Source of the DNA: Malania oleifera | Lineage: Eukaryota > Streptophyta > Magnoliopsida > Santalales > Ximeniaceae | Direction of reading: 5' to 3' | DNA: 64,000 nucleotides | Assembly: GCF_029873635.1 (NCBI RefSeq) | Contig: NC_080417.1 | Span: forward strand, 30,368,214 to 30,432,213 | Shown here: in pieces, positions 399-59,816 of the stretch | Position numbering within the stretch: position 1 is the first letter of the stretch | How the letters are laid out: every line of letters starts with the position of its first letter | Notes under the pieces: generated by a model | The model's database searches: none | Told to the model about the DNA's origin: nothing | What the model saw: only the letters and a program-made list of their open reading frames with translations | Made by a program: the position numbers and the translations under genes

Positions 399-477
399 TT
401 TGTCGGCAAATCCCCTATGTTCATCAATGAAGCACTCTTCAATTCTTGTCGATGAATCCCCTGTGTTCGTCAACAAG
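399..477. repeat. Quartet of degenerate TTCGTCGACGAA palindromes, 3' internal region of copia A
   Basis: Four 12-bp degenerate palindromes start at 399, 420, 445 and 466, giving spacings of 21, 25 and 21. The same quartet architecture occurs three times in A's 5' LTR (16032-16336). The short spacers share the text TCCCCTATG or TCCCCTGTG with the LTR copies. The quartet lies about 70 bases beyond the pol stop, so it is either internal 3' sequence or the remnant of a damaged 3' LTR. Confidence 0.7.
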
Positions 478-4860: not shown

Positions 4861-7029
4861 TGTTAACCTTATTGGTCATGCCCAGTTTTGATTATGATAA
4901 ATACTTATTTTATCTAATGCGTGTTTGAGGTTATGTGCAGGAACTCAGATTAAAAGATCTTAATGCACGTGGAAGATAGTGAAGAGACAAGACCCAATAA
5001 TTTCATGTTGTAATATATATAATTCATTTTTGTAAAGGGTCTATAATAGTAAATTAGGGTGTTTACTTGTAATAATCACACACCCCACATACATGTTTTA
5101 ATACGTAAGCTTACAATGCTCAAAATGAAAATGACCTTAGGGTTTACCCTTCGGTCGACCGACACTGGATTTTTTCGGTGTCTTCAATTGGACATAAATA
5201 ACCCTAGGTCACACACCATTGCACCTATGAATGTTAGGCACTTGAATAGGGTTTGTGTGATTCAAAACAAAACCGAAATGTACACTTTATGCACTTTCGG
5301 TCTACCAACCTTGGCAGTTCATTCTGCCTCGATCGACCGAACCCAGGTTCAAGTCAACGGTTGACCAAAGTCCCGGTCGACCGAACCATCGTAGTTCAAA
5401 TCCCCCGGTTGACCGAAACCTCCTGATGTCAACAATTTGACCACCTGGTTGACCGAGCCAAATTTGTATTGTAACTACATGGTCGACCAAGGGTCCTTGG
5501 GAGAAGTCCCAACTGTCTGGTCGACTAAATCATTCAGTTCAAAATGACCTAGTCGACCGAACCTCGGTAAAATAGAAAATCGCCTTTCAAACATGCACTT
5601 TCAGTCAACCAAGTCCCAAGTTCAAAAATGTCCTAGTTGACCGAACCATATGAACTTCGGTCGACCGAAAAGGTTTCTGGTTGACTGGACCTCTCGGGTT
5701 ACACTAATTTTTTACCATGATTAAAATGTTTTAAACAGGGTTAATTATTTTAAAATGATTTAAAACTTTCCTAATCATTCCTAATAGGTCCCCAACGGTT
5801 ATAATTCTTAAGATGTCTATATATAAAATTTGCAACTGGATTAAGCAAAAAAATTCAAAAATTGTCTCTCAAGAAAAATACTCTCTACCACTCATATTCT
5901 TTCTACAAACACTCTAGCTTACGTTCTCAAGTTTAAAAATCCTCTGTAAGTGTTTTGAGTGTTTAATCAAAAAGGTTTGCTCTCTCATTGTTGTGAGATT
6001 GAATCGATTTTAAAAAAGCAAAGCCTAAGTTCTCTTAGGGGGCTTTGTTAATAAGTCTATCCTAAGAAAACTTGTATTGAACTTCCGAGTGTTGCATTTT
6101 TCCTTGTAATAACTTAGGAAGTTTTATATTTGTTTTGGGTTGTAAAACTTTTTCTAAACACACTCAAATATCTTGTAGGATTTACTTTGATATATTTGTG
6201 AAAAGATATTTGCGTTTGTGATATTGGTCTTTGTTGCAATATTTACTCAAATACATATTATCTTGCTAAATACAAAGATTGAATATTCTTTTGTAAACCA
6301 AATATACATATACATTACTAGAGCATCATACGATTGAGAAAATTTGTTGATTGAAATATACTTATATATTGTTTGGCTACTATCTTTGTGTGAGCTATAA
6401 GATTGAACACATATTGTCATACAAAGATTGTTTGTTGACACTCTCACGTACACATTACACTGATAGAAAATACATTTGAGAGTCGAACTATTTAGACCAC
6501 ACCGAGCTTACATATTAAATCATTTGTGGTGTATGTGATTAAACGCATTTGGGTACAAATCTGCTTTACGTGAAAGCACTTTTATATTGTACCATTTGAT
6601 TGTAAATCTGAGTGATTCTAGGCGTGGCCTGAGGGGGCGGTAATCCAGTCGGGTAAGGATTGGTGTAAAGATTGAGGTCAGCCCTGTGCTAATTGACCTA
6701 GTTTGTGTAGGTGCCGATCCACCCGTTTAAGTGAGCAAGTTATAGTGGTAATCATTGTGCTTGTTAGCCAAGGCGAGGACATAGGCAATTGGCCGAACCT
6801 CGATACCATATCTGCGTATCACCCTCTCTTTACTGCTTCCTGGTGCTTGTGTGATTGATTAAATTGCTTTATTTACTTTCTGGTATACATTTACTTTACT
6901 TGCACTAGATTGACCATAGGGTTGTGAATGCACTGGTGTTAGGAGATTGACCTAGGGATTAAATTTTAAAAATACCAATTCACCCCTCCCCCCCCCCCCC
7001 CCGGTCTTGGGATCATGGTAAATCTAACA
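4861..7029 (+). repeat. 5' LTR of copia B
   Basis: 2169 bp, TGTT...AACA, matching 12547-14686 along its length. It contains the palindrome array (5151-5660). A poly-C tract near its end (about 6990-7003) is also present, shorter, in the 3' LTR. The tail GGTAAATCTAACA is followed at once by a tRNA-type primer-binding site. Confidence 0.95.
5151..5660. repeat. TCGGTCGACCGA palindrome array in copia B 5' LTR
   Basis: At least nine degenerate copies of the 12-bp palindrome TCGGTCGACCGA. Examples start at 5151 (perfect), 5297, 5329, 5357, 5373, 5405, 5445, 5479, 5517 and 5549, with weaker copies to about 5660. Many intervals are 32-40 bp. Variants are mostly CG to TG or CA changes (GGTTGACC, GGTCAACC). 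The array repeats in the 3' LTR at 12838-13342. Confidence 0.85.
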
Positions 7030-12546: not shown

Positions 12547-14686
12547 TGTTGATCTTATTGGTCATGCCCAGTTTTGATTATGAAAAATACTTATTTTATC
12601 TAATGCGTGATTGAGGTTATGTGCAGGAACTCAGATTGAAAGATCTTAATGCATATGGAAGATAGTGAAGAGTCAAGATCCAATAACTTCATGTTGTAAT
12701 ATATATAATTCATTTTTGTAAAGGGTCTATAATAGTAAATTAGAGTGTTTAATTGTAATAATCACACACCCCACATGCATGTTTTAATACGTAAGCTTAC
12801 AATGTTCAAAATGAAAATGACCTTAGGGTTTACCCTTCAGTCGACCGACACCAGATTTTTTTGGTGTCTTCAATTGGACATAAGTTATCTTATGACACAC
12901 ACCATTGCACTTATGAATGTTAGGCACTTGAATAGGGTTTGTGTGATTCAAAATAGGACCGAAATGCACACTTTGTGCACTTTCGGTCAACCGACCTTGG
13001 CAGTTCATTCTGCCTCGATCAACCAAACCCAGGTCCAAGTCAATAGTTGACCAAGGTCCCGGTCAACCGAAACCTCCTGAGGTCAACAATTTGACCACCT
13101 GGTTGACCGAGCTAAATTTGTATTGCAACTACCTAGTCGACCGAGGGTCCTCGGGAGAAGTCTCAATTGTCTGGTCGATCAAACCATTCAGTTTAAAATG
13201 GCATGGTCGACCGAACCTCGGTAAAATGGAAAATCACCCTTCGGACATGCACTTTCGTTCGACTGAGTCCCAAGTTAAAAAATGTCTTGGTCGACCGAAC
13301 CATATGAACTTCAGTCGACCGAAAAGGTTTTTGGTCGACCGGACCTCTCAGGTTGCCATGAATTTTTACTGTGGCTAAAATGTTTTAAACAGGGTTAATT
13401 ATTTTAAAATGATTTAAAACTTTCCTAATTATTCCCAATAGGTCCCCAACGGTTATAATCTTGGGATGTCTATATATTCCCCTTCATTTGGGAAAATTAG
13501 CAACTAGATTAAGCAAACAAATTCAAAAATTCTCTCTCAAGCAAAATACTCTCTACCACCCATATTCTTTCTACAAACACTCTAGCTTACCTTCCCAAGT
13601 TTAAAAATTCTCTATAAGTTTTTTGAGTGTTTAATAAAAATGGTTTGCTCTCTCATTGTTGTGAGATTGAATCAATTTTACGAGAGCAAAACCTAAATTC
13701 TCTTAGGGGGCTTTGCTAATAAGCCTATCCTAAGAAAACTTGTATTGAACTTCCGAGTGTTGCATTTTTCATTGTAATAACTTAGGAAGTTTTATATTTG
13801 TTTTGAGTTGCAAAACTTTTTCTAAACACACTCAAATATCTTGTGGGATTTATTTTGATATATTTGTGAAAAGATATTTGCGTTTGTGATATTGGTCTTT
13901 GTTGCAATATTTACTCATATACATATTATCTTGCTGAATACAAAGATTGAATATTCTTTTGAAAACCAAATATACATAAACATTACTAGAGCATCATACG
14001 ATTGAGAAAATTTGCTGATTGAAATATACTTATATATTGTTTGGCTAGTATCTTTGTGTGAGCTATAAGATTGAACACATATTGTGATACAAAGATTGCT
14101 TGTAGACACTCTCACGTACGCATTACACTGATAGAAAATACATTTGAGAGTTGAACTATTTAGACCACACCGAGCTTACATATTATATCATTTGTGGTGT
14201 ATGTGATTGAACGCATTTGGGTACAAATCTACTTTACGTGAAAGCACTTTTATATTGTACCATTTGATTATAAATCTGAGTGATTCCAAGCGTGGCTTGA
14301 GGGGGCGGTAATCTAGCCCGGTAAGGATTGGTGTAAAGGTTGAGGTCAGCCTTGTGCTAATTGACTTGGTTTGTATAGGTGCCGCTCCACCCGTTTAAGT
14401 GAGCAAGTTATAGTGGTAATCCTTATGCTTGTTAGCCAAGGTGGGGACGTAGGCAATAGGCCAAACCTCGATAACATATCTGCGTGTCACCCTCTCTTTA
14501 CTGCTTTCTGGTGCTTGTGTGATTGATTAAATTGCTTTATTTACTTTCTCGTATACATTTACTTTACTTGCACTAGATTGACCATAGAGTTGTGAATATA
14601 CTGGTGTTAGGAGATTGACCTAGGGATTAAATTTTAAAAATACCAATTTACCCCCCCCCCCTCTTGGGATCACGGTAAAGCTAACA
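12547..14686 (+). repeat. 3' LTR of copia B
   Basis: 2140 bp, TGTTGATC...GCTAACA, matching the 5' LTR throughout. It carries a palindrome array at about 12838-13342 and a shorter poly-C tract (about 14651-14661). It is followed by the CTTAG duplication and resumed copia A gag. Confidence 0.95.
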
Positions 14687-15322: not shown

Positions 15323-15326
15323 TTAT

Positions 15327-16883
15327 TGGCCCGGGGGTGCGTCTAGAGGGGTTTGAATAGACATCTTTGGCGGATGTACAATTTTTCTACAATCACAACA
15401 ATAACTTGACAAGATATAAGAGTATTATATCACAATTTATATTTAAGATAAATAACAACAAGTAAACAAAATGAAAGAGGAAGGAGAAGGAAAGCTCAAC
15501 ACGACAATATTAACATGGTTCGACACCAAGCCTACGTTCACACCTTGAGACCAACTCAAGGATTCCCCAAATCAACTAAGCAATCCTCCTTCATCGGCGA
15601 AGAAGCCTTTACAATCCAGCCGCTCACCAAGAGCTACAATAAGGTGCTCACCAAGAGTCACCTTACAAAGGCTCACAAAGAACCCTTCAACACAATGGAT
15701 TTAAAACAATGTGATACAAATTTATATTCTCCTTTTTGAGCTAATATTACAAATCAAAACCTCACACTACTCTCTTTGTGAATGGTATTTGAGACAAGAG
15801 TAAAGAGCCAGAGAGCAAGAGAGTATAAGCAAGAATGAAAACCTTAGAAATGAATGCTCAATCAATGTGCTTAACAACAAAGCACTCAACTAGTTTGAAA
15901 TAAATGCACAAGACTCATATAAAAGGGCAAAGGGAAGAGCAATGCACTGGAGAGCCGTTGGGTATTAATGGACATGAGACAATTTGAAAACTAGCCATTA
16001 ATACGCATTAAATGATGTTAGCAGCTTGAAATTCATCGATGAGTTCATGCCTTCGTTAACGAGTCTTATGCATGCCTTCGTCGACGAGACCCTGTGTTCA
16101 TTAATGAACCTTCTATTCTAAATTCAGGCAGGTCTCGGTTTCTTTTCATCGACGAGTCCCCTATGTATGTCGATGAACCACCACTATTTCTTCATCGCCG
16201 AATCCCCTGTGTTTGTCGACAAATGTACTCTGAAATTTTAGGTGGTCTCGGTATCTTTTTGTCGATGAGTCCCCTATGTACATCGACAAAATCCCTTCTT
16301 GCATTCGTCGATGAATCCCCTATATTCGTCGATGAACCCCTTACTTATATAAATTTGAATACGTTCAAAAATTGGTTTTCGTTCAAGTAAAGGTTCCATC
16401 TTGTCCAGAATTAATTTTTACCAATTTTAAGATGTCTTCGTTTGATAAAACACGTTTGAAAGTCATTTTGACATCTTATGCAGTTTAAGTGACTCGACAT
16501 GCATGTGTGAACTCGAAATCATGTTCTAACCTATAATGAACTATATGCATGTATGATTTGCTCGTCTTTTGCAAAATACTCTTGAAACATACCATATGCA
16601 CAGAAGGTACAATATTAATCTCATACGCACAACCCAACACATATGTGTAGAAATCATAAATGCTTTGCTTGAGTGGTTGAGCTCCGGATGTGTCGTATGT
16701 TGGACTTTGTTGATGGTCATTTGCTTGTTCAATACATATATGACCATTATGCTTTGTCTTGGAGTTTTCCTATATAACTGAACTAAGCTTGAGGAAAAAA
16801 TGTTAGTAAACTTTGAGAACAACTAATGGGTTGTTGTCATCAAAACAAGTTGGAATGAAAACCCTTAGCCACTAAGGCTAACA
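15327..16883 (-). repeat. 5' LTR of copia A
   Basis: About 1557 bp. Its U5 edge (TGGCCCGGGGG in + orientation) lies beside the primer-binding site. The outer edge reads GGCTAACA, giving a TGTTAGCC start in element orientation. Near that edge is text common to SIRE-type LTRs (TTGTCATCAAAACAAG in + orientation). It carries a 12-copy palindrome array at 16032-16336. Beyond 16883 the coding of copia C starts abruptly, so this is taken as the insertion junction. With no second LTR in view, the boundary is inferred. Confidence 0.7.
16032..16336. repeat. Three quartets of TTCGTCGACGAA-type palindromes in copia A LTR
   Basis: Twelve degenerate 12-bp palindromes start at 16032, 16052, 16077, 16097; 16145, 16166, 16191, 16212; and 16258, 16279, 16304, 16325. 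Spacings within quartets are 20-21, 25, 20-21. Quartets begin exactly 113 bp apart. The inner 10-mer TCGTCGACGA is perfect at 16077. Spacers often read TCCCCTATG or similar. No protein-coding reading is supported here. Confidence 0.85.
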
Positions 16884-19823: not shown

Positions 19824-19919
19824 TGTTGTTTATGGTGGCTCTTATATTTTGAAGTTTCATAAACAAGGAAAAGGAAGAAGAACATGGAGGGGCTGTACAG
19901 CAGAGACTCGTCGACAAGG

Positions 19920-21759
19920 TGTTAGCTTTGGTGCAATCCCAAGAGGGGGGGGGTGAATTGGTATTTAAAAAATTTTATCCCCTGGGTCAATCCACTAACA
20001 ACAGTATTACAAAAGCCTAAGATCAATCTAGTGCATATAAAATAAATCAATGTAAATATACAGTGGAATTTAAACTGCAATAGAAATTTAACCAAGCATG
20101 CACAATAAAGCAATAAAAGAGACAACACCAGAAATGTTATCGAGGTTCGGCAAACTACCTATGTCCCCACCTTGGCTAACAAGCACAAAGATTACCACTA
20201 TAAGCTCATTTAACGGGTGGAGCGGCACCTAAGCAACCAGGTCAAATTAACACAGGGCTGACCTCAACCTTTACAACCAATCCTTACTAGGCTGGATTAC
20301 CGCCCCCTCAGGCCTGGAATACAACATATTTCTCAATAAAATTTGCGTACAACAAATGTGCTTCTTAACTAAGCAGATTATGTATCAATGTAATCAATAC
20401 ACTACTGATTGATATGATAAGATAAGCTTAGTGTAGCCTTAGTGTCTACTCTCAAAGATTAATGCAAATAATACAATCAGTACGTGAGAGTGTAAGTAAT
20501 ATGATCTTTGTGTTAAAATAATATTTTCAATCACAATGCAGCAACAAAGATCACAAGTATACTTCAAATATTTTAACAAATTTTTTTCTCAAAATAAACC
20601 ACAAGAGATATTCAAAAATGATTTGTAAAACTTTATTTGATTTTGTATTAAAATGATAATCTCAATCAAAATGTATAGCAACAAAGATCTTTAACACTCA
20701 AGAAGTAAGATTTTTTGAATTTTAGAAAATTTTTGCTAATTAAAATTGCTAATCCTTGACTAATTTTTGCAAATGAGAGGGTATATATAGAATTCCCCAA
20801 AATTATTACCGTTTAGGACATATTAGTCATTTTTGAAAAAGTTTAACTAAGGTTAATAGATTTTAACTGCATTTTAACCTTGGTAATTATCGCCAACCCA
20901 AGAGCACCGGTCGATCGAACTTAAGGTTCAATTGATCGAGTGGCTGGGTTCGGTCGACTGGGAGAAATTTGAACTGAAAAGATGGTCGACTGGACTTGTA
21001 GGGTTCAATGGCGATTTTCCAACTTCGAGCTGTTTGGTTGACTAGGTCAATTTAAACTGCGAGATTTGGTCGACCGGGCAATTGGCAATTCCCACGTGGG
21101 GGTTCGGTCGACCAGGACGTTGCCCATATAATCGTGGTCGATCAACCGAGTGGTCAACTTGTTGACCCAGGGAGGTTCGGTTGACCTGGGCTTGCTATAT
21201 GTATTTGGTCGGTTGACCGAAGGGTCAACTTGTTGACCCGGTGGGAGTTCAGTTGACTGAAGATCTCAGTGTAACTGAGTTCGCTTCGATTGACTGAACA
21301 CGCCATCCTTGGGCATTTCAGTCCTTTTTCTCTTATAAAATTTTTCCTATTCATATGATGATTAATGTTAAGACTATAGGGCATATTTTTATGAAGTATA
21401 GGGTGTCATAAGGTTAGTCTAGGTCTTTTGAGCATAGACCCTAAAAAATTCGACGTTAGTCGACCGACCCCTAAGGTTATGTAGCCCCCTATGGTCAATA
21501 TATGGTCATCACTGAGCTTTTATCCATATCATGCATGCAATGCATTAATTATTACAGACCATTTCCTATATTACTATTACAGACCAAAAATGATAAATAT
21601 AAATTACAATAAACAAATTTGTCGAGGTCTTCAATTTTCTTCAAGTTGTCGCATGCCATCAATATAATCCGGTTAGTGTGATCCTGCACACAAACTTGAT
21701 AGCCATCAATTATCAGTATTTGTCATTATCGAAATCGGGCGTGACCTATAAGATCAACA
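19920..21759 (-). mobile_element. Solo LTR D, relative of the copia B LTR
   Basis: The reverse complement matches copia B LTR ends: TGTTAG..CCCAAGAGGGGGG..GTGAATTGG at the left is the complement of B's CCAATTCACCCC..CTAACA end, and GGCGTGACCTATAAGATCAACA at the right is the complement of B's TGTTGATCTTATTGGTCATGCC start. No internal region is present, so this is a recombined solo LTR. The flanking 5-mers (CAAGG left, TGAGG right) agree at only 3 of 5 bases, so the duplication is decayed or not provable. Confidence 0.85.
20907..21465. repeat. TCGGTCGACCGA palindrome array in solo LTR D
   Basis: About a dozen degenerate copies, for example near 20907, 20949 (TTCGGTCGACTG), 20982, 21032, 21066, 21103, 21134, 21176, 21211, 21247, 21285 and 21454. 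Spacing is mostly 30-43 bp. The family flank TCG..CGA matches copia B, as expected from the shared LTR ancestry. Confidence 0.8.
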
Positions 21760-22274
21760 TGAGGAGATCCCAAGAGACCCAAAAGTTCAGAGATCCTAAG
21801 ATACTGAGAGCTATTTTAAAGGCTCGTCGATGAGTGGTCTTCTTGGTCTTGTCGACGAACCCTGTTCTCATCGACGAGCAGTTCTGGGCTGCAGGCAGAT
21901 TTTTGAAATTTGAGTTTCGACGTTATAGTGGTTGGGTATTTGGAGGAAAACCTTCAAGTAACTTTTATATATTGTATTTCTAAGTGTATTTGCAAAGTAA
22001 GATCATTGTAAAACTTTTGTATTGTGGTGTTTCATATTGTAGTGAATATTGAATGTCATTTGCTTTCATTTTTGTGTTATTGGTTGTTGTCTTCTCATTC
22101 ATATTGGTGGAGTGTTGTTGAGACTTCGTTTATTTGTTGCAAGTTTACATCTTCCGCTGTGTGTTTGTCTTATACCCGAATTTTACAACACACTCCCTTC
22201 TCAAACTCATTTATTATAAGGACTTAAGCTACGCATATGTGTTGCACTTAAGAGATTGATCATATCAACCAAAA

Positions 22275-23865: not shown

Positions 23866-24066
23866 CTTATATATATATTTTAAAATTTTTAATTTTTAAT
23901 TTTTTGGCAATCAATAGCAAAAACTCAACGAACAATAAAAAATAAAAATAAATAAAAACCAAGCGGAGGACTCTGTGTTGACCCCACGCGCTCCCTCGCA
24001 ACAATGATCAACTCAAAAGGACTGCAGGAGTGAAGAGGGCCAGAAGACTGACCGGAGAGATTTGGA
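23866..24066 (+). promoter_or_regulatory. Putative core promoter and 5' UTR of pBRP, with a short uORF
   Basis: A TATATATATATT run at about 23868-23880 lies roughly 190 bp before the start codon. Composition shifts from very AT-rich to GC-rich at about 23960, as expected near a transcription start. If the transcript includes 24004-24033, it carries a 9-codon upstream ORF (MINSKGLQE, stop TGA), 33 bases before the main ATG. The start site is not known, so this is a prediction. Confidence 0.35.
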
Positions 24067-33700: not shown

Positions 33701-36700
33701 TCCAATCTTTAGTCCTGTTTGATAGCCGCTCAAATCGTGTCTGTTACCCCAAGACAGTTCTAGTTTGGCGTATTTTAGCAAGCTCTCCATCGATATTCTC
33801 ATATCCAGTGGGCCCAAATCGGATTAGTAATCCATAAACAAATTCTGCCCATGAAGGCACTCCATAACGAGCTTCAAACCAGTCATACCATTAAATAGCA
33901 TTGTTATCTAGAATAATAGAAGCAATCTCAACTTTAGATGGTTTTGGAGTGCGGTGAAAGAGAAATTATTTTTCAGTCCTTTAAATCCAATTGGTAGGGT
34001 CATCACTGTCCCACTGAGGAAATTCCATCTTCATACGAGAAGGATCACAATCACGTTCTCCTTGGTAACCTCCTTTGCGCACATATGGACGCTCCCTACG
34101 ATTAGCTGATGTAGAGGCGTCATCTTCTTTCTCTTTGTGGTAAGATGTAATGAGAAGTTTAGAAAGCGATGCCTGGATTTTTCAAATTGAGACTTAAACA
34201 TATCGCTAAGTTCAGCATTTAGCCTAGCTTCCATTTGGGACACTGCTGAATTTTCTGAGGTCATTGCGTATGAGTCAAGATCAAGAGTGTCAAGATCTTG
34301 CTTTAGTTGGCGAGTTAACGACATCCACAAGGTCGACTCTGATACCAAATGATAAGGCACTAGGGTTTTATCATGGAGAAATTAGGAAAATTTTAAGAAG
34401 GGAAAATAGTAAGAGAAAATAGGGTTTTGATCACTTCGAGGGGATTTGCCTCCAAATTAGCCAAAGGCTATGTTATTGCTTGAATGGAAAAGCCTTATAG
34501 GGTTATATATATATATGGTTGGGAAACTTACTCCTATTAGGAATGTAAAATATCCCAATCCAAGTCGTTAATGAACTCAATCCCAATTGATTTTGGAATC
34601 CCAACACATTACATAAAAATCCCAACATCAAATAATCCTAACATTGAATAGAATTCATTCGGAAACATAATAGATTAATTAAAAATCCCAATTGATTTGG
34701 GAATCCTAACATACTCTCAGACCAACCTTCACCATTGGTTCATTTACCTTCTTATCATCATCCTCTCATCCATTTGGCTTGTTTTCATTCTTAATTTAGC
34801 ACAGTGGTTTGGAAAGGATTTGAGTAAGTAATTTAAGGAGAGAAAGCTGGTGCCTGACGGGAGGTTAACCCCTGCAGAAATCAGTGGTGGCCCAAATGCA
34901 CGTGTCCTTTTCCTCCATCTTCTCATTTGCGCTTGCCAGTATTTCCGAATATTTGGTAGAAACATGGATGTTTTTTAGAGAGTATTTTCGTTTGGAGAGA
35001 ACTTGACCTGAAGGGAACCTATGACTGTGGTCATCATTGGTAATCTCCATGGTTGCCGATGGTCCAAGCATTCACACCCATCCTTTTCTTTTTCTTGAGG
35101 AATTTTAGCATAGAGAGAGGGAGAGAGCATATTTGCAGCGGGTATATTCTGAGGATGGGAAGAATAAACCCATTGCTGGTGAGTGTAGGTACCACTAACA
35201 CCAGCAGCAAGCTCTTTCTCATACTCCCTTCTCTGCTCTGTCTGATGACCACCATCTCATCTCCAATGGGAGACTTTTTTCTTGAGGGGAGTGAGAACAT
35301 ATGAGGATACCCTTTTGTATTGCAACAGCTGCTTTTAGTGCTGATGCTGCTGGCGGTTCAAATTGTAACTACTTATTCTTCTTCTTTGCTGGGTATTGGA
35401 GGCACTATTGTCCCCGTAATGGGGCCATTTCCATCCTCAGCAATCCACTGCCATCAAAGTCAAACGATGATCTGTCATAGCATTAGCTATCAAACCAAAA
35501 TCCATTATGGATTCTGGCTAACTCACCTCCATCACCCATGGCTGTGGAACCCTGACCAGCAATTGACTATCACCTCCTATTAGGCGTCTCAACCTGCAGC
35601 TGCAATCTGCCATTTTCACAGTTGTGAGGCTTGTAATGTCCAATCAAACATGTTGTGCCTTTCTTTGGGAATCAGGACATTCAATCCACAAATGGTAATG
35701 GGGGTCTTTGGAGCTTTGTGCCCACTTGCAGCACAGTGAATCAGATCTCATGCCTGGTATACGATCAAGTGTTCCAATCTTTCTTTTCTTTTCTTTCTTC
35801 CTAGTTGTTTGGTGATGGTTACCCAAATATATGATTGGTAGGTAAGTACCTTTGATCTTTCTTTGGGAAACAGGACATTCAATCATCAATTGGGAACAAT
35901 GACACATGCGCAGAGTGTATCGGGTATCAACTCTCAAATCTGTATTGTGATCAAATGTTCCCAGATTTTTTTCATTCGTAGCCATTTTGTGCCCAAACAG
36001 TTCTTCCAGTAGGTAAGTCCCTTAGACCTTTCTTCTTTTGCGATTCCCAAAAATATTTTCATGCTTGATCAAATTGAATTGAGTTGTATATATTTTAAAC
36101 TTCTCTAAATTTGATTACATGAATCCATTTCAATTTCAGGCTTGCGTCTAAATAAGTTTTTGTTGAGCAAAAAGTTTTGTTTCTTGATGATTTGTTTTGT
36201 AATATCGAGAATTCCACAAGGGGAAAAAAATAAAACAGAAAAAAAAATGCAACACCCAATGCAAAAGGTTCCCATGTTGTACCTCAGGGATTTGGTGAGG
36301 AATGATGTACACAACCTTACCTCCACAAACAGTAAAGAAATAGTTTATGGAAATGCATTTGTTTATGTTGCTGGTTTTCTGTTTCTGTTGATGGTTTTCA
36401 GTTATTTGCAGAAAAACTGAAGACCAGATTTTATAGTTTTCAATTGTATTGGCAATATGTTGCTAGAAAATTTAGTATCCAAAATTAACTTTTTTGGATT
36501 AAATAATCCATTTTATCCATATTTTTTAATTAAAATTGAAATAAAATGATCATTTGAGTTTTAAAAATATAAATAGAATAAAAAATTCCCATAAAATTTC
36601 AAAAAAAAAAAAAAAATAAAAAAAAAATAATAATAATAATAAAATCCCTTTACAAAATATTTTTACTTTATTTCAGTTCTCATATACAATAAGATTGTTC

Positions 36701-37810
36701 TTATAAAGTGAATTTGAAACATATTTCTTGAGTAAAATTATTATAATAATTTTTATTTTCATTATAATATTTTTAATTTATATTACTTTGTACTTTTATT
36801 ATCTTAATCATATTTTGTATTTGTTATTTGTTTTGAGGACAGAAATGAGCATTTGTTTAGTCGAGTTTTTAATTTGTTTAATTCTAAAACTATTAATCAA
36901 ACATGTTGCTTGTTTTTTATTTTTAATTTCTGTTTTTGGGTTTTAGTTTTCGTTTATGATTTTTGTTTTCATAATTTTGACAGTGATACCAAGTGACCCC
37001 TTAATCTTATTGCAAAATTTTCAGGAACTGGCAACTCACATCGGAGAAGTTGTGATCAACAAATGCTTCTGTACTCGTCGCAACCCAATAAGCATTTCTG
37101 CAGCTGCAATATATTTGGCTTGTCAATTGGAAGACAAACGCAAGACCCAAGCTGAGATTTGTAAAGTGACTGGTCTTACGGAGGTCACACTTCGGAAGGT
37201 TTACAAAGAACTGTTGGAGAATTGGGATGATCTGCTCCCATCTAATTATACTCCAGCTGTACCCCCAGAGAAAGCATTTCCCACAACTGCAATTGCGTCA
37301 GGCCGTTCTTCAATGTCTAGAATTGATTTAGCTGAAGTAGTTCCTATATTGGAAAAGGATAAGCAGGCTGAAACTCAACATAACAAATTAAATGAGGTTC
37401 CAGACACGAACTATCAGGCTAAAGGTACAGATGACACTGAAGGTAAAGATAACTCTTGTGGAACTCATATGCCTTCTCTGAATCAGGCACTGTCTATCTG
37501 TCAGTCGCAGCTGCTGTTTGGGACTTCAGGTATTAAGGTTGCAGGAATTGACATCAATGATCTGCAGACTCACTCTCAAGAGTTGGAACAGAGGGTAGAC
37601 AAGGACACACAGACTTCCACAAGGCTGAGCCAGTTTTCCAGTCTACCTGCTTCAAGTGGGAGTTCTATCTCCTGGCCATTTCGTCCACCGTCTTCATCAG
37701 GGCCTTCTCCTCCCATGCACTTTGTGCAACCATCTACGGTGGTATCTGTTTTTCCAGAGCTCAAAGGAACAGGTAATGAAATGAGAAATCAAAACAGCCA
37801 CCATTGTTGA
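24067..37810 (+). CDS. BRP: Plant-specific TFIIB-related protein (pBRP), three exons, 533 aa
   Basis: Exons 24067-24723, 27264-27422 and 37025-37810 join in phase 0 to 533 codons. The N-terminus has a TFIIB-type zinc ribbon (Cys3, Cys6, Cys25, Cys28; [16 protein letters not shown]). A linker with a poly-Ser run (about residues 132-143) precedes two cyclin-like repeats: about 160-260 ([36 protein letters not shown]) and about 273-350 ([48 protein letters not shown]). The C-terminal tail is Ser/Pro-rich. Length and order match Arabidopsis pBRP (about 500 aa). The family is reported on the cytosolic face of plastid envelopes and, when stabilised, in nuclei, with a role in rRNA gene transcription proposed from algae. 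Introns are GT-AG, 2540 and 9602 bp, the second swollen by retroelements. No lesion is seen, so the gene looks functional. Confidence 0.93.
24724..27263 (+). other. pBRP intron 1
   Basis: 2540 bp, donor GTATTG, acceptor TTTTTCAG at 27263. It is AT-rich and contains one hAT-like non-autonomous element (25733-26605). Nothing else was recognised. Confidence 0.9.
25733..26605. mobile_element. hAT-like non-autonomous TIR element in pBRP intron 1
   Basis: 873 bp with inverted ends CATGGTTTTAAAT... and ...ATTTAAAACCATG. Subterminal GTTACGTAACG, CCGTTAC and GTAACGG motifs repeat on both sides. The flanking 8-mers ACTTTGTG (25725-25732) and ACTTTGAG (26606-26613) match at 7 of 8 bases, which fits a hAT 8-bp duplication. 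There is no transposase ORF, so any mobility would have needed a partner element. Confidence 0.75.
27264..27422 (+). CDS. BRP: pBRP exon 2
   Basis: 159 bp, 53 codons, from [17 protein letters not shown] to LLQLNKSAQ. It completes the first cyclin-like repeat and the link to the second. It is bounded by TTTTTCAG|GA and CAG|GTAATG and is near-identical to the known pBRP sequence at this point. Confidence 0.93.
27423..28642 (+). other. pBRP intron 2, portion before element E
   Basis: T-rich intron sequence. No gene, LTR end or RNA was recognised. Nearby short ORFs are chance readings. Confidence 0.7.
28643..29027 (-). repeat. 3' LTR of gypsy E
   Basis: Matches 34350-34711 (shared GGGAAAATAGTAAGAGAAAA, CCTCCAAATTAGCC, TTGGGAATCCTAACA). 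The first base is A where the partner has T, so the TG terminus has decayed on this side. The AT-to-AT run of repeated short phrases (AATCCTAACATTAAATAG) is present in both LTRs. Confidence 0.92.
29288..30171. mobile_element. hAT-type non-autonomous element nested in gypsy E
   Basis: 884 bp with ends TAGAGGTGTAC... and ...TTACACCCCTA. A perfect 8-bp duplication CCTAACTT lies at 29280-29287 and 30172-30179. Near its ends are TTCGGTTTTGG-type repeats, as in many TAGGGGTGTA hAT elements. It contains snRNA-promoter-like motifs (see the separate entry). It has no transposase ORF. It inserted in the linker before the chromodomain of gypsy E. Confidence 0.9.
29651..29785. promoter_or_regulatory. snRNA-type upstream sequence elements inside the hAT-type element
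   Basis: GTCCCACATCG (29733-29743) matches the plant upstream sequence element consensus RTCCCACATCG. A TATATATAT box follows at 29777-29785, with a 33-bp gap, the spacing typical of Pol II snRNA genes. An inverted near-copy, CAATGTGGGAC, sits at 29651-29661. The sequence after the TATA box matches none of the snRNAs I know by their 5' ends. Function is unproven. Confidence 0.45.
34331..34347 (-). other. Primer-binding site of gypsy E
   Basis: On the minus strand TGGTATCAGAGTCGACC lies two bases inside the 5' LTR. It is an initiator tRNA-Met type site. Confidence 0.85.
34350..34711 (-). repeat. 5' LTR of gypsy E
   Basis: 362 bp, TGATAAGG...CCTAACA in + orientation, matched by 28643-29027. 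It is followed by the TACTC duplication. Confidence 0.92.
34717..37024 (+). other. pBRP intron 2, portion after element E
   Basis: AT-rich intron. It includes a direct duplication: the phrase CTTTCTTTGGGA plus a diverged AGGACATTCAATC context starts at 35659 and again at 35857, about 198 bp apart. An A-rich tract lies near 36600-36640. The acceptor is AAAATTTTCAG at 37024. Short ORFs here are not supported as genes. Confidence 0.7.
37025..37810 (+). CDS. BRP: pBRP exon 3 (second cyclin-like repeat and C-terminal tail)
   Basis: 261 codons plus a TGA stop. The first about 90 codons (second cyclin repeat, ending [17 protein letters not shown]) are the most conserved. The rest is a Ser/Pro/Gln-rich tail, variable in the family, ending [11 protein letters not shown]. 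Confidence 0.93.
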   Translation, partial: ELATHIGEVVINKCFCTRRNPISISAAAIYLACQLEDKRKTQAEICKVTGLTEVTLRKVYKELLENWDDLLPSNYTPAVPPEKAFPTTAIASGRSSMSRIDLAEVVPILEKDKQAETQHNKLNEVPDTNYQAKGTDDTEGKDNSCGTHMPSLNQALSICQSQLLFGTSGIKVAGIDINDLQTHSQELEQRVDKDTQTSTRLSQFSSLPASSGSSISWPFRPPSSSGPSPPMHFVQPSTVVSVFPELKGTGNEMRNQNSHHC

Positions 37811-45655: not shown

Positions 45656-47628
45656 TGTTGGCCTAATTAGGCTTTTCAATCTTGTTTTGATGATAACAAA
45701 ATGAAAGATGTTTTAACATGTGTTGTTAAGTGACTTTATTTCAGGTTTAAGTAAAATGACACTCACGATTAAGCATGGAAGTAAGCTGGAGATCAAAGTC
45801 AATCAAGTGAAAGCTTCTTAGTATATTGAAGTAATGAACAACAAATGAAGAGCTTAAAGGCCAAGCAGATCTTGAAGTAAAAAGTGAACTTCAAGAGGCT
45901 GCAAGACTTAGTGATTAAAGAGATCATGCTAAGAAGGATATTTGTAAGTACTTCAAGTCATTACTATTTAGATATGTGAAGTTCCTTAAGGTACAAAGAC
46001 TGAGAGATCAACACTTGTAAAACTCTTGAAAATGTTTTTGAAAAATTATAATTAAAATTTTCTAGTAAACTAGATTTTAAAGAAATCAGAAATAGAAAAT
46101 ATTTGAAAATAGAGAATTGCCCAACCGACTGAGAATACCCAGCCGACTAACTATTTTTTAACGTGGTTTAGTCAGCCGACTGACAGGAAACCTTCAGCAA
46201 AATTAACTGTCTAGCTGACTGACTCGATGAATGGAAAACGTCCAGTCGACTAACAGTACCCAGCCGACTGACAATTTTGAACGTGGTTCAGTCAGCCGAC
46301 TAACAATTTGTTAGAATTATTTTTTGAGAGACAAAATGGTGTCAGAATGGTGTCCAGCCGACTGACTAATGCAAAAAGTGACCCAGTCGAGTGGGTCAGC
46401 CAACTGATTCTGCTGGGAATTTTTGAATTTGAAACTTATGGGAAGATTTTCAAAATTGATTCTATAATTTAATATATTTTGAATAGTTACCTAAATGCTC
46501 CATGTTAAATGAGGAAACTTTTCCTTAAAAAAATCTATAAATACCTCCCTTACTCAATAAAAAAAATACACTCAAACAATATACGATTTCTATGCTAAAG
46601 TTCTCCTAAAACTCATACTTGTTCACACTCTTACTGGGGGAAAACTTTACGAAATTGCTGGATTAAAAAGGGGCTTTGATTCTAAGTTGCATCTAAAATT
46701 CTTATATCAATAAGAAAGAACCTTTGGTGACTTCTAAACCTTGAACTTCATATTTTCTATTTAGTTTTGGTTTTGAAGTATGATTAGAGATTTAACTTGT
46801 ACAACTTGCTCTGTGTTTAAGAATATTTTTGTATGCAGATATCCATTCCTTTCTACTAGATCTTTGACGGTTCAAGGTATTGTTGGATCGTTGGACCAAG
46901 CATAGGTTGTTGCTTGGAGAGGTTTCTCTTCCTAAAAAAGAGGTTAGTTTTTGTAAAGGTTTTTGTTCCACTCGGAAGGAATAAGGTATAGTGAAATCCT
47001 TAAGTGGTTGACTTAAGGCGAGGACATAGGTTAGGGTAAGCCGAACCCCGTAAAAACGGCGGTGTCACTCTCTTTCCCTTACTCTCTTTAAATTCGAGCA
47101 AAAATATAAATTGTGTGGATGTTGTAATTATTTCAATCATAAAAATAACGCATATTGGAAATTAAATAAATCAAAGCCTAATTTGTTCTCGGGCTTGCGG
47201 AAACCGAAAGGGAGAACGTTGGTTAATCAATTTTTTGCAAAAACCGTGAAGGAGTATGTTGATTGGTTAACAACCCAAAACCTATTAGCTGAAGGTTTAT
47301 TTAAATTCTGATTTTGAAAAAGTGATTGGATGTTATTTTAATGTTCAAAGGCCAAATGCAGGACTTGCACATTTATATACAGGGCTGCTGAATATTGCAA
47401 AGCAAATATTGATTGCTTGTTTTGTGTTTGTTTGATTTGAACAGTTAATCAATTGGTTGTGTATGTTGTGGTTGTGGATTGAATAGAATAAGTAAGTGTT
47501 TGTGTGAATTGCCTAATCAATAAGAATATAAGAAGTATTTAAAAGGTTGTAAAAAGTCAAGAACTCATAAAGAAGCTCTAAGGAATTTTAAATAACCAAA
47601 CCCTCTTGGGACTACACCTTAAGTTTCA
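45656..47628 (+). repeat. 5' LTR of copia F
   Basis: 1973 bp, TGTTGGCCTAATTAGG...AAGTTTCA, followed two bases later by TGGTATCAGAG. It matches 56219-57559 until the H insertion. It carries a palindrome array at 46122-46408. Confidence 0.88.
46122..46408. repeat. GTCAGTCGACTGAC-type palindrome array in copia F LTR
   Basis: Nine or more degenerate 14-mers start at 46122, 46140, 46173, 46209, 46241, 46259, 46291, 46353, 46381 and 46395. The block 46122-46186 recurs 118-119 bp later at 46241-46304. The commonest form is GTCAGCCGACTGAC. The perfect palindrome GTCAGTCGACTGAC appears in the 3' LTR copy near 56960. The core matches the GTCGAC centre of the other arrays. Confidence 0.85.
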
Positions 47629-47698: not shown

Positions 47699-49678
47699 TG
47701 TAACGACCTGCTCCTTTTTCACATATATATATATATATATTTTTATATAAATAAATTATCATCACATCATACATTCCAACTCAGCAGGTCACAATCCACC
47801 TGGGCTCGTGGGCACCAGGGATATAACAAAACATACAGCAGAAGCCTACGCAGCAGAAAGTATAAAATCATATACATCTCATCATAATGTGCATAACACA
47901 TACCAGAGTCACTACAATTACTATCTCACAGTATATACATCTCAAAAATGAAATATAGGGACAATCCCCACAAAACCTAATTGTCCCTACCAAAAACTTA
48001 CCCTTCCAAAGAGGGCAAACAACTGCTCTAGATCAGCGGGGCTTTTCCTGCTCTCCTATTAGGGGCTCCTGAAAAATATATAAGATTTAGGTGTGAGACA
48101 CCTCTCAGTAAGGGAAATAAACTAATACCAGTGTGTGACAACATGAGTATTCTGTGTTCTACATATACCATACATAACATATTCAATACTGTTTATCAAA
48201 CTGGGAAAACATATGCATATCAAAACATGGCAGAACATACTGCATTTTCATAAACATTTCTCATCTCATATCATAATAATAATAACATAAAAACAATCTT
48301 GGTAGGTTAGTTGGCTGTTGTCATGTATTACCCCTACATGACTAGGTTGTGTGGCTCGAAGGCGGGACTTGACAATGGTTGGCCGACCACTGCCAAGTCA
48401 AACAGTAGTCTGTAGGTCCGATGGGTCTACCCAGACTTGTCCATACACCAGGGGCGATAACAGCACACTTCTTGAAAATAACCACATCGACCATCCAATC
48501 TCACACCACTCCGTACAGCAGCGTTAACACAGATATCATGATCACGAGGACCATGGACACATAGCAACGGTACCGTGCAAGTGCTAGCCTAGACCAAGCC
48601 AACCAGGTTCTGATATCATATACATATACTAAAACCGTGATACATAAATATCTCATATAATTTATTTTCACATCAATCATATCATTTCACATATATACGT
48701 GTATCATGAAAATCATCGGTCCGTATGCCGGTATTACACATTTTAACATAGCACGGCCCGTACACCGGAAAATCACATAGCACAGCCCGTACGCTGGCAA
48801 ACCACATAGCACAGCCCGTATGCTGGCAAATCACATAGCACGGCCCGTACGCCGGCAAATCATATAGCACGGCCCGTACGCCGGCAAATCACATAGTACG
48901 GCCCGTACGCCAGCAAATCTCAACCATATAGCACGGTCCGTACACCGGCAAATCACATATACATATAAAAATATCTCGGCCCGTACGCCGGTTTTCCATC
49001 ATAGAAATCCATATCGTCCCCATTCCAAAAAAAAAAAAACAGTATTTCACAACATTTTTATACTCATGCCACACTAAACAAATTTTCTACGTATCCAACA
49101 TATCATCATTTAAACAGTATTTTCCAAATATAAATCATATATATAAATATATTTATTTTTCCTAAAACCAGATGCTATATATATATATATACATACATTT
49201 TCTCAAAACAAAACTAGTTTAGTTTATCCCCTTACCTGATTCCTGAAAAGCCCCTAAGAAAATTTTCCCCGTACCCACAAGGTTCTCAACTCAACACCCT
49301 GAAAATGAAAACTCGCAGAATTAAAGTTTAGTATTTTCGTACGTATAACATTTTCTATAACTACCACTAAGTCAAATTCGACTTAAAAAGTCTTACCTCA
49401 ACTTAGGGATAATTCCCAACTTTCCCAATCAATACCCTGGAACTGAAAATTTTCAGTATTAAAGTTCAGTATTTTTACGCATATATCACTTTCTTCAACT
49501 GTCAAAAATCCAAATATTAAATATAAAGCCTTACCTTGGATTTGGGATGAAATCCAACTTCGTTTTCCTGACAATCCGCTCCGGCAGACTTGTAGAGAAC
49601 TTCGCCAGGAGCGTCGTGGTGGCTTCGGTTTGTCGATCCGGAGTAAAACGAGCCCGAAATCGAAGAGAGAGAGAGTCG

Positions 49679-49735
<57 letters not shown>

Positions 49736-49865
49736 TGCACTCACGCGCACCAAATGAATCCAATTCAAATTGGATTTTTTTTTTTTTGACTTTTCAAAGC
49801 TTAAGCTTGTGGTTTGAATTTATTTGACTTTTCAAAGCTTTTTTCTTTTTTTTTGAAGAAGCTTG

Positions 49866-49910
<45 letters not shown>

Positions 49911-50055
49911 CATAATTACTTATATATATATATATATATTTTGTCCTTATCATACTATTCATTTTACTTGTTAATTTAATTAATTAATTTTATTTTATTA
50001 TTTTATTATTATTATTATTATTATTATTTTAAATTTTTTTTTCCCGGTTACTACA
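47699..50055 (-). mobile_element. Solo LTR K of a gypsy element, inserted in copia F gag
   Basis: 2357 bp, TGTAACGACC...GGTTACTACA, flanked by a perfect ATAGG duplication (47694-47698 and 50056-50060). The reverse complement resembles the H LTR (CCACGACGCTCCTGGCGAAG, CAATCCGCTCC complement), so it is a diverged Tekay/Del-type LTR in minus orientation. It holds a 29-bp minisatellite, a GA microsatellite (49682-49731) and TA runs (49870-49908), and no internal region. Confidence 0.92.
48747..48960. repeat. 29-bp minisatellite in solo LTR K
   Basis: A CATAGCACGGCCCGTACGCC unit repeats with CATAG or TATAG at 48747, 48776, 48805, 48834, 48863 and 48892 (exactly 29 bp apart), then 48927. Single outlying copies of CCGTACGCCGG lie at about 48721 and 48980. 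Differences are mostly at CpG positions (CGGCC to CAGCC, GCCGG to GCTGG). Confidence 0.95.
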
Positions 50056-56218: not shown

Positions 56219-57559
56219 TGTTGGCCTAACTGGGTTTTTCAATCTTGTTTTGATGATAACAAAATGAAGAATGTTTTAACATGTGTTGTTGAGTGGCTTT
56301 ATTCCAGGTCTAAGTAAAAAGACACTCACGGTTAATCATGGAAGTAAGCTAGAGATCAAAGTCAATCAAGTAAAAGCTTCTTAGTATATTGAAGCAATGA
56401 ACAACGAATGAAGAACTTAAAGGTCAAGTAGATCTTGAAGTAAAAAGTGAACCTCAAGAGGTTATAAGACTTAGTGATTAAGGAGATCATGCTAAGAAGG
56501 ATATTTATAAGTACTTCAAGTCATTACTATTTAGATATGTGAAACTCCTTAAGATATAAAGACTTATAGACCAACACTTGAAAAAATCTTGAAAATGTTT
56601 TTGAAAAGTTATAATTAAGTTTTTCAAGTAAACTAGATTTTAAAGAAATCAGAAATAGAAAATATTTGAAAATAGAGGACTGCCCAGCTGACTAACAGTA
56701 CCCAGCCGACTAACTATTTTTGAACATGGTTCAGTCAGCCGACTGATAGGAAACCTTTAGCAAAGTTAACTATCCAACCGACTGATTCGATGAACTAAAA
56801 ACGCCCAGCCGGCTGACAGTACCCAGCCAACTGACAATTTTAAACGTGGTTCAGTCAACCGACTCACAATTTGTTAGAATTACTTTTTGAGAGACAAAAT
56901 GGTGTCAGCCGCCTGTCCTGCCAACTGACTAGTGCAAAAGATGACCCAGTCGAGTGGGTCAGTCGACTGACTCTGCGGGTAATTTTTGAATTTCAAACTT
57001 ACGGGAAGATTTTCAAAATTGATTCTATAATTTAATATCTTTTGAATAGTTACCTAAATGTTCCATGCTAAATGAGGAAACTTTTCCTTAAAAATGTCTA
57101 TAAATACCTCCCTTGCTCAATGAAAAAATACACTTAAGCAATATACGATTTCTACCCTAAAGTTCTCCCAAAACTCATACTTGCTCACACTCTTGCTGGG
57201 GGGAAACTCTACGAAATTTCTGGATTAAAAAGAGGCTTTGATTCTGAGTTGCATATGAAATTCTTATATCAATAAGAAAGAACCTTTGGTGACTTCTAAA
57301 CTTTGAGCTTCACATTTTCTATTTAGTTTTGGTTTTGAAGTACAATTAGAGATTTAACTTGTACAACTTGCTCTGTGTTTGAAAGTGTTTTTGTACGCAG
57401 ATATCCATTCCTTTCTACTAGATCTTTGACGGTTCAAGGTATTGTTGGATCATTGAACCAAGCATAGGTTGTTGCTTGGAGAGATTTCTCTTCCTAAAAA
57501 AGATGTTGGTTTTTGTAAAAATTTGTGTTCCACTCGGAAGGAACAAGGTATAGTGAAAT
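56219..57559 (+). repeat. 3' LTR of copia F, truncated by gypsy H
   Basis: Matches the 5' LTR through its palindrome array (56688-56980) to TATAGTGAAAT, where the 5' LTR continues CCTTAAGTGG but here gypsy H begins (TGTAACGACC). GAAAT at 57555-57559 is the expected left target duplication of H. The right copy is outside the window. Confidence 0.9.
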
Positions 57560-59725
57560 TGTAACGACCTGGAAAATATTGATATTTAAATATTAAAGAG
57601 AGAGGAAAATGGAAACAGGAACAGAAGGAGGTAGTAGACTTCGTCGATGAACTCGGGTTTTAGAGATAATAATAATAATAATAATAATTTTAAGGAATTT
57701 CCAGGACTCGTCGACGAATATAGGGGTTCGTCGACGAGTGCATAAGGAAATTCATCTACGAATACACGGTTTTGTCGACGAAGGTCTTCAGGACCTCATC
57801 GACGAAGGCAGGATTTCGTCGATGAGAAAATACCGAGAAAGGTTTTGGGGCAGCCTAAATTTCATCGACGAGGAAGCAAGGTTCATCGACGAAATTACTG
57901 AAAGATTCGTCGACGAGATGACATGTCTCGTCAACGAAGGCCGCAGTATAAATAGTGAAAAACTCGGATTTTTACTCATTTTCAGCGCTCCTCTCTCTCT
58001 CTACAACCCTCTCTCACTTCTCTTTTCGTTTTCGGGCCTGTTTCTCGTAGGATCGAAGATCTGAGGCTACCACGACGCTCTTGGCGAAGTTCTTTGCAAG
58101 TTTGCCAAAGCTGATTGTTGGAAAAGTTGGGTTGAATTTCGTCCTAATCTTAGAGTAAGACATTTTATTCAGTATTTGTCTTTCCTTCAGTTATGAGAAA
58201 TGTTGTAGGTAAGAAAATACTAATGTTTTGTTCTAGGGGATTTTGTTCAGAATGTTGAGCTAGGAATCCTGCGGGTATAGAGCCAGAATTTCATAGGGGC
58301 TTTTCAGAGTTAAGGTAAGGGAAATATGCTATGCTAGGAGTTTTCATAATGCTATCAGAGATTTCATACACACATATTTATACCAGTTTATTATACAGTA
58401 TTTATAGAATATGAGTTTAAATGCTTGTGTGGCCTGAGTAGATTTTCATGTGATGAAGAATTTATACAGCTTTTATAATGTATCATACTAAACTGAATAC
58501 ACAGATATAGATACATATTCACAGAGATTATACAAAGAAATTTACATGCATATACAGTTTTTATATGAGTAGTTTCATTAAACAAACATATATATATATA
58601 TATACATATACATGTATACAGTTTTATTCAGATCAGTATTAAATCATAGTTTTATACAGAACAGTATATACAGAGTTATAGCATGTCATGTTTCTTATTA
58701 CCATAACATACAGAGTATACGGACAGAGTATATAGACAGAGATACAGAGGTAGCATCAAGATGCTACAGATACAGTATACAGAGATTACAGTATTTATAG
58801 TACAGAAAGATAGCGTTATGGTAATTTTGGAAATATGATGAAAACAGTAAAAGAGTATATATGTATATATGTATATAGTATCATATCCCTGTGGAAAGAT
58901 TAGAAACAGATACAGTACAGATATAGATTACAGAGCACGGTACCATTGCTATATACAGATAGAGTGTAACCACATATCTCAGATAGTGTGTTGGTACCGT
59001 CAGCTGTGCTCAAAGAGTATGCAGCTCCCCAGTTCACTAGGTGGAGGGGGCCGGTTTGACGAGGTAGTAGCCAGTCCTGAGCTTAGGAGTGGATGCAGTT
59101 TGGTTGGGCTGAGGTAATATAGAGTATATTAACTTATCTAGAGAGCCGACCAGATGAAGTCCTGCCTATGGGCCGCACAACCCTGTCATGAGGGGTCAAA
59201 TCATAACGTACAGAGTCCGAGGGATAAAACACAGTTATGTATATGTATACGTATACATTTTTACAGTATATGATGAGTATAGTATGATATTAGTAGTATG
59301 AAAAGTAGAAAATATAGATGATACAGCTATATTTTAAATTGTGAAAAGAAAGATATGCTTTATAGATTGTTTATTGCATTACAGTTCAGTTGCTATTGAA
59401 AAAGTTTTCTTAACTTAGTTGTCACACACTAGTAATAGTATATTTTCACTTACTGAGCGTCAACTCACCCCATTACTTTACAATTTTTCAGGTGAGCCAG
59501 TTAAGCGAGTAGATCAGGCTCGCGGATAGAGAGTATTTTGATTACCTTGGTTATAGGGTGAGTTTTTGATAGAGTTGTATATATTTTGAGTAGATGATGC
59601 TAGAGGGGTATTTTTGTATGGCTATGGTCTGTATATATACTGGATTCTGGTATTGTATAGTATATATATGTGAGTGGTTGTATGATTTGTGTTTCCGCTG
59701 CTTAAGTATGGATATAGATACACAG

Positions 59726-59775
<50 letters not shown>

Positions 59776-59799
59776 GGTAAGAATTTTGAGGTCATTACA
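57560..59799 (+). repeat. 5' LTR of gypsy H
   Basis: 2240 bp, TGTAACGACCTGG...GGTCATTACA. It carries an 11-copy palindrome array (57640-57938) followed by CT-rich text and the CCACGACGCTCTTGGCGAAG block shared with solo LTR K. A region rich in ACAGAGTATA and ATACAGA repeats lies at about 58640-58960, and (TA)n at about 59729-59771. Confidence 0.88.
57640..57938. repeat. TTCGTCGACGAA palindrome array in gypsy H LTR
   Basis: Eleven degenerate 12-mers start at 57640, 57707, 57727, 57751, 57771, 57795, 57815, 57861, 57882, 57906 and 57927. After the first, intervals are 20, 24, 20, 24, 20, 46, 21, 24, 21. The consensus is (T/C)TCGTCGACGA(A/G). The inner 10-mer is perfect at 57707, 57727 and 57906. 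Eight of nine inner deviations are CG to TG or CA. Confidence 0.9.
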
Positions 59800-59800
59800 A

Positions 59801-59816
59801 TTTGCTATCAGAGCCT
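59801..59816 (+). other. Primer-binding site of gypsy H
   Basis: TTTGCTATCAGAGCCT follows the LTR after one base. It resembles the initiator tRNA-Met site TGGTATCAGAGCC with a changed start. Confidence 0.7.

Follow-up and report, generated by a model that had tools for sequence, protein, structure and literature searches.

A regularly spaced palindrome array upstream of the TATA box in a Ty3/gypsy LTR of Malania oleifera, probably shared with Copia elements

Results

An ordered palindrome array in gypsy H

In a window of 64,000 nucleotides from Malania oleifera (C1:30368214-30432213 of the 1.494 Gb host assembly), the U3 region of the Ty3/gypsy element H carries eleven copies of a palindromic motif, which start about 80 bp into the 5′ LTR and stop 8 nt before its TATA box (Table 1). 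We favor, with moderate confidence, the reading that these sites form an upstream activating array of the LTR promoter that would be bound pairwise by a sequence-specific host factor. To judge from sequence comparison, this regulatory module is probably common to Copia and Gypsy elements.

Pfam matches to Ty3_capsid, RVP_2 and RVT_1 revealed a Ty3-type gag, protease and reverse transcriptase in H, identifying it as Ty3/gypsy, and an SH3_Tf2-1 match was found at the end of pol (L061:3-491). The open frame ends near what we take to be the expected start of a chromodomain, with no Chromo matches up to an E value of 1, and from its LTR ends we assume H to be a likely Del/Tekay element. The 5′ LTR is 2240 bp long, and the 3′ LTR lies just outside the window (L061:849-3108, corresponding to 64849-67108 on the window scale); the two are 89.5% identical across 2293 columns. 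Eleven sites are also present in the 3′ LTR of H, in which the TATA pattern was not found. Comparison of the H reverse transcriptase piece with viral and genome contigs returned no relatives.

The eleven sites of the 5′ LTR follow each other at intervals of 67, 20, 24, 20, 24, 20, 46, 21, 24 and 21 bp, and our motif scan reproduced both the number and the spacing reported in the initial annotation. Exact TCGTCGACGA is found in only three of the sites (57708, 57728 and 57907); of the others, seven depart from it at one letter and one (57752) at two. Eight of these nine changes are C>T or G>A at CpG, a decay pattern as in methylated copies. A chance origin of the H array is excluded: CpG-decay forms of the site number 10 in the H U3, whereas 2000 Markov shuffles of this U3 had 0.028 on average and never more than 1, and the window holds 39 matches to the motif with at most two mismatches, where 5.5 were expected and none of 100 shuffles scored as high. 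Tandem Repeats Finder detected only (ATA)n inside the array, confirming that it is not a simple tandem repeat.

The sites had also been supposed to lie on nearly the same face of the helix. This does not apply to the whole array, which has a vector strength of 0.21 at 10.5 bp per turn (0.85 at 11.0), and is right only for the two members of a doublet, spaced by 20-21 bp or about two turns. Doublet starts are 44-46 bp or more apart, so successive doublets turn around the helix, and with the whole array out of phase at 10.5 bp per turn, paired binding within doublets is expected instead of a single protein face.

Table 1. Positions of the described features in the window
Feature	Position	Strand	Basis or remark
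Gypsy H 5′ LTR (TGTAACGACC...GGTCATTACA)	57560..59799	+	termini and match to 3′ LTR
Palindrome array, 11 sites, U3 of H 5′ LTR	57640..57938	+	motif scan
Site 1 TTCGTCGATGAA	57640..57651	+	
Site 2 CTCGTCGACGAA, exact	57707..57718	+	
Site 3 TTCGTCGACGAG, exact	57727..57738	+	
Site 4 TTCATCTACGAA	57751..57762	+	
Site 5 TTTGTCGACGAA	57771..57782	+	
Site 6 CTCATCGACGAA	57795..57806	+	
Site 7 TTCGTCGATGAG	57815..57826	+	
Site 8 TTCATCGACGAG	57861..57872	+	
Site 9 TTCATCGACGAA	57882..57893	+	
Site 10 TTCGTCGACGAG, exact	57906..57917	+	
Site 11 CTCGTCAACGAA	57927..57938	+	
H octet, eight TATA-proximal sites (20-24-20-46-21-24-21)	57751..57938	+	matches octet of fetched loci
Second conserved motif AATACCGAGA, 2 nt after site 7	57829..57838	+	junction comparison
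TATA-proximal short spacer ATGACATGT in H	57918..57926	+	several relatives have (A/G)TGACGTG(G/T) at this spot
TATA box TATAAATAG of H	57947..57955	+	sequence; fixed distance in 19/19 array-bearing H-family copies
PBS-like stretch TGCTATCAGAGCC after H 5′ LTR	59803..59815	+	sequence
5′ LTR of Copia A (starts TGTTTTGATGACAAC; TGGTATCAGAGC directly after)	15326..16849	-	part of 3′ LTR at L062:9118-9931, 89.4% identical
A array, 12 sites, in LTR	16032..16336	-	20-25-20-48-21-25-21-46-21-25-21 (+ strand order)
GATACCGAGA in A, 2 nt after palindrome	16246..16255	-	junction comparison
Quartet of decayed sites (21-25-21), CAYAGGGGA spacers, 3′ of A pol	399..477	-	spacing
D 3′ LTR start, one site at 19907-19918	19829..19919	+	5′ LTR at L062:5498-6034
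D 3′ LTR remainder, sites at 21823, 21848 and 21867; interrupted by LTR C	21770..22190	+	LTR comparison
LTRs B and C	5152..5667, 12838..13341, 20908..21466		
LTRs of element E	46122..46406, 56703..56969		
Gypsy LTR G, inside E leader	47699..50055	-	

The octet order across the assembly

The motif in its form YTCGTCGACGAR occurs 121,972 times in the assembly, versus 244 times for the reversed control. Among the first 100 matches listed, all within the first 1.3 Mb of C1, pairs at most 250 bp apart were spaced by 19-21 (14), 24-25 (6), 44-46 (13), 65-67 bp (13) and other distances, and none by 22-23 or 26-39 bp. In 20 loci of 9.9 kb each, which were picked around motif matches and are not a random sample, 27 clusters with at least four sites were found; 152 of their 169 intervals are 19-21, 24-25 or 44-47 bp, and again none is 22-23 or 26-39 bp. 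The sites are organized into doublets (20-21 bp), the doublets into quartets (24-25 bp apart) and the quartets into octets, in which two quartets flank a spacer of 33-39 nt. A frequent form in the picked loci is the octet P21P25P20P-46-P20P25P21P, near-symmetric about its center; beyond its octet, H has one extra doublet and one further site. Within 40 nt of the 26 arrays with at least five sites, a TATA was found at 8 nt in ten, at 18-20 nt in six and at 30 nt in two, and was not found in eight. Beside these arrays, similarity to H- or G-type gypsy LTRs was seen in 19 (some matches being short), to D-type Copia in one (54 bp) and to neither in six.

A second conserved motif, RATACCGAGA, is usually present in octet loci 2 nt after a site, and the central spacer of the octet usually begins with it. 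For ATACCGAGAG, which was picked from the same arrays in which it was counted (scope about 283 kb), 31 places were found with at most one mismatch; 19 of them begin 0-11 nt after a palindrome, 18 at one offset, where 0.4 were expected, and the reversed control gave none of eight. At two mismatches, 25 of 207 places follow a palindrome (2.7 expected), against one of 190 for the reversed control. The short spacers also contain ACGTG or CACGT in 18 of 120 cases (shuffled 1.0, maximum 6), ACGTG being a bZIP-type core.

The motif is held between copies and decays after insertion

A search for H-family members with R/U5 yielded 8833 candidates, of which 40 were scored, and U3 was taken from the next 20 after H's own two LTRs. 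Arrays of 6-12 recognized sites (at a lax threshold) were present in 19 of these 20 copies; the remaining one, L082, has no sites. When columns with at least eight letters were compared, with L082 left out, variation at positions that are never CpG was about eightfold lower in the motif than in spacers: 36 motif columns varied by 0.033, 123 spacer columns by 0.281 and 106 flank columns by 0.240 (permutation p ~5e-5). With L082 kept, the values were 0.062, 0.307 and 0.248. CpG columns varied by 0.311 in the motif, 0.405 in spacers and 0.373 in flanks. In a family alignment of the kind called for by the initial annotation the motif is thus better kept than the spacers, and this difference, together with the quantised spacing and the fixed distance to the TATA box, supports a functional cis-regulatory array in the LTR.

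Sixteen octets were also put in register, H included, with two that are a likely LTR pair never compared with each other. Motif identity was 0.80-0.90 versus 0.33-0.55 for spacers, and the 128 octet sites contain 114 mismatches, 103 of which are CpG transitions and 11 non-CpG. Slot-specific spacer similarity was highest in the TATA-proximal slot (0.56 vs 0.34 for other slots), followed by the sixth slot (0.49 vs 0.33); it was weak in slots one to three (0.46/0.37, 0.40/0.36 and 0.42/0.39), and the fifth slot showed none in these sixteen octets (0.375 vs 0.38). The spacers of H do differ in sequence from each other, as stated earlier, although certain slots resemble one another between copies and between families.

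The 5′ and 3′ LTRs of five elements (H whole; parts of L059, L053, D and A, the pairing being inferred for L059 and L053) gave no sign of post-insertion protection of the motif. Differing positions amounted to 48/320 in the motif, 24/436 in spacers and 241/3378 in the rest; at CpG, to 37/174 in the motif vs 39/150 in the rest, and outside CpG to 11/146 vs 202/3228. For the H pair alone the counts were 9/100, 20/197 and 126/1910 for motif, spacers and rest. Dead copies thus lose sites as fast as other sequence, or faster at CpGs. Equal decay of motif and spacer, which the initial annotation had named as counting against a function, is what the LTR pairs display, but it is not seen between copies or families. 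With no protection after insertion, selection on replicating lineages is shown by the contrast between copies and families.

Arrays in Copia elements A and D

Element A, which from its LTR and PBS features we take to be Sirevirus-like, has the Copia domains gag_pre-integrs, rve and RVT_2 (Pfam) in its pol, and D has RVT_2. Nine of the twelve sites in the A array have at most two mismatches and the other three were placed by spacing. In D, the 3′ LTR contains four sites and the 5′ LTR five, of which four follow each other at 20-25-19. The junction of palindrome, NN and RATACCGAGA is exact in H and A, and occurs with one mismatch in a second copy in A and in D. The nearest TATA-like stretches, judged by eye, are about 110 and 85 nt from the arrays of A and D, versus 8 nt in H.

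Comparison of the H and A spacers gave a divided result. Module-wide similarity was not significant (masked alignment, p 0.30; spacer shuffles, p 0.16-0.21), whereas fixed-register tests were (best short spacer, p 0.002; gap, p 0.00025 and 0.0005), with two of the five H short spacers no better than shuffles in register with A. L063, a relative of A at 74%, is without TCGTCGACGA arrays, which counts against a shared origin. The LTR of this A-like Copia carries other palindromes, such as AAACCGTTAATGGTTT, and palindrome arms may change between related families. Since junction, order and spacing agree between H and the Copia elements, we consider common descent of the module likelier than convergence, and a motif carried by two unrelated element classes suggests a shared switch and one DNA-binding protein.

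Other LTRs and neighboring sequence

Two further palindrome classes were found in the window. LTRs B and C carry CGGTCGACCG, and the LTRs of E carry CAGTCGACTG or CAGCCGACTG; both classes are irregularly spaced, without the 20/24/46 order. In an unbiased palindrome scan (at most one mismatch, 20 shuffles), counts against shuffles were 10 vs 3 for H, 5 and 7 vs 4 for B, 3 vs 2 for D, and 5 vs 4, barely above shuffles, for C and the 5′ LTR of E; A (4 vs 4) and the 3′ LTR of E (3 vs 6) were not above shuffles, so that E palindromes exceed them in the 5′ LTR only. The Tekay-like LTR G has R/U5 as in H and an AT-rich U3 without palindromes, as either gain of a movable module or its loss would predict.

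At L041:4912-5154, an array has H-type sequence upstream and a B-type LTR beginning 14 nt from its other end, and may be a nested insertion or a chimeric LTR. Host gene pieces lie at 24052-37810 (+) of the window, with TFIIB repeats (Pfam TFIIB) about 12 kb apart, and probably belong to one gene split by a TE-filled intron; its product, we presume, resembles plant-specific TFIIB-related proteins. A scan of viral contigs gave 32 stretches that contain a spaced pair of motifs, 31 at a GC content of at least 0.578 and one at 0.40 (L024) that looks coding by eye; as a group they are presumably chance phage coding sequence.

Discussion

The nearest known system to the H array is that of the Sirevirus RM boxes. 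The accessible parts of Bousios et al. 2010 (PMC2829016) describe palindromic RM boxes upstream of TATA in Sirevirus LTRs, clustered in the upper half of the LTR 200-400 bp in, call them Sirevirus-specific among the Ty1/copia elements compared, and give a CGG-CCG core for 12 of 13 elements in Table 3. The H array is likewise high-copy, palindromic, CpG-rich and upstream of TATA; with 11 copies per LTR it agrees with the at least eight per element of RM boxes, and it lies in the upper LTR half, although it begins earlier (~80 bp). H differs in being Ty3/gypsy instead of Ty1/copia and in its motif (TCGTCGACGA), from which the CGG-CCG core is absent. That core is present in B and C, whose CGGTCGACCG is the RM given there for a Vitis Sirevirus (PMC2829016); these LTRs, and also E, are without the order of the H sites.

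Among gypsy elements, Del LTRs as presented in the available sections of Cruz et al. 2014 (PMC4029996) have, as H does, a CpG-rich, length-variable 5′ stretch, and the 2240 bp of the H LTR fall inside the 1143-4831 bp reported; unlike in H, no palindromic motif is described in the searched text, and absence of CpG islands is predominant in the cluster with all eudicot Del elements studied. The heat-responsive ONSEN/COPIA78 elements likewise have transcription-factor sites in the cis-regulatory region of an LTR retrotransposon, but with another motif and in Brassicaceae Copia, as far as the consulted portion of the source goes (PMC5059998). A literature search lying mostly outside subscription journals gave no match for LTR retrotransposon, GTCGAC and palindrome together and, among the matches listed for papers containing the 10-mer, no retrotransposon title. 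Short repeated motifs with regulatory roles are also known from the U3 boxes of Tnt1 and the VANC-binding motifs of VANDAL, and to our knowledge neither is a palindrome octet common to two superfamilies. The TCGTCGACGA 10-mer is also found in a northern-blot probe in the accessible text of a grapevine viroid paper (PMC2767511), probably by coincidence.

In an upstream activating array, each palindrome would be bound by a protein specific for its sequence, probably a host transcription factor acting as a homodimer, with two such proteins per doublet on one helix face, and a bZIP-like factor may bind at ACGTG of the TATA-proximal spacer. Many weak contacts could then produce strong or inducible transcription, and inserted, silenced copies would lose their sites by CpG deamination. 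One absolute 10-mer at every site, with rare non-CpG changes, argues for direct reading of the DNA by a protein. Binding of GTCGAC by DREB/CBF was considered and dropped, as GTCGAC in the paper checked occurs only in primer restriction sites.

The array might instead act as RNA, neighboring palindromes forming hairpins in U3 transcripts that feed small RNAs or affect RNA processing. Such a hairpin role has been proposed for maize Sirevirus palindromes, over which small-RNA hotspots are reported in the accessible parts of two papers (PMC10760457, PMC5311732), and folding of the H array is far stronger than that of its shuffles (z -10.0; octet of another element, z -4.1). Folding is, however, expected of any palindrome array, doublet partners scored as inverted repeats do not significantly exceed permuted ones (128 vs 124.8, p 0.22; H alone, p 0.053), and the retention of one absolute 10-mer by all sites, with mismatches in the 128 octet sites chiefly CpG transitions, also makes this explanation unlikely.

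Somewhat less likely still is that a CpG-dense array serves methylation, as a host silencing platform or a CpG-island-like shield. Each site has three CpGs, and decay chiefly at CpG suggests methylated copies; moreover, RM boxes bound CpG islands upstream of TATA in Sireviruses (PMC2829016) and CpG islands occur in the 5′ part of Del LTRs in some monocot groups (PMC4029996), according to the available text of both papers. CpG density alone would nevertheless leave the fixed spacing, the near-invariance of T and A within the motif (0.033 in never-CpG columns) and RATACCGAGA unexplained. The varying number of recognized sites among the 19 H-family copies would fit a functionless by-product of tandem duplication and slippage, but duplication would copy spacers too, and instead the sites are alike while the spacers differ, some with slot-specific letters; this origin is disfavored and, in our estimate, very improbable. 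An element-encoded factor like VANC of VANDAL, to which one motif arrayed family-wide might point, is the least probable: between the end of pol and the 3′ LTR, no stop-to-stop ORF listed for the H strand is longer than 58 aa, and since Copia elements share the motif, a single element-borne gene would need to act in trans on all of the elements.

The module probably moved between the LTRs of Gypsy and Copia elements through recombination or template switching, and did not arise twice. We tentatively propose, as a possibility that falls short of an even chance, that a cassette of octet, RATACCGAGA and TATA-proximal ACGTG spacer may have been exchanged between Ty3/gypsy and Ty1/copia LTRs in this plant and have reached tens of thousands of copies, a figure obtained by extrapolation at about three exact sites per array. 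Unrelated retrotransposons would then use the same dedicated DNA-binding factor, in competition with one another, and the cassette would be a promoter part that can be transferred and has an evolutionary success of its own.

With the present analysis, palindromic arrays of the RM type are seen in a Ty3/gypsy family as well, where their layout is precise, and a CpG-aware comparison separates a motif that is held between copies and families from its decay once inserted. The results point to a cis-regulatory cassette common to two superfamilies of LTR elements, whose 12-mer has over 120,000 exact sites in a single genome. They offer a concrete sequence with which the factor could be identified, and a case in which the exchange of promoter modules between retrotransposons can be tested.
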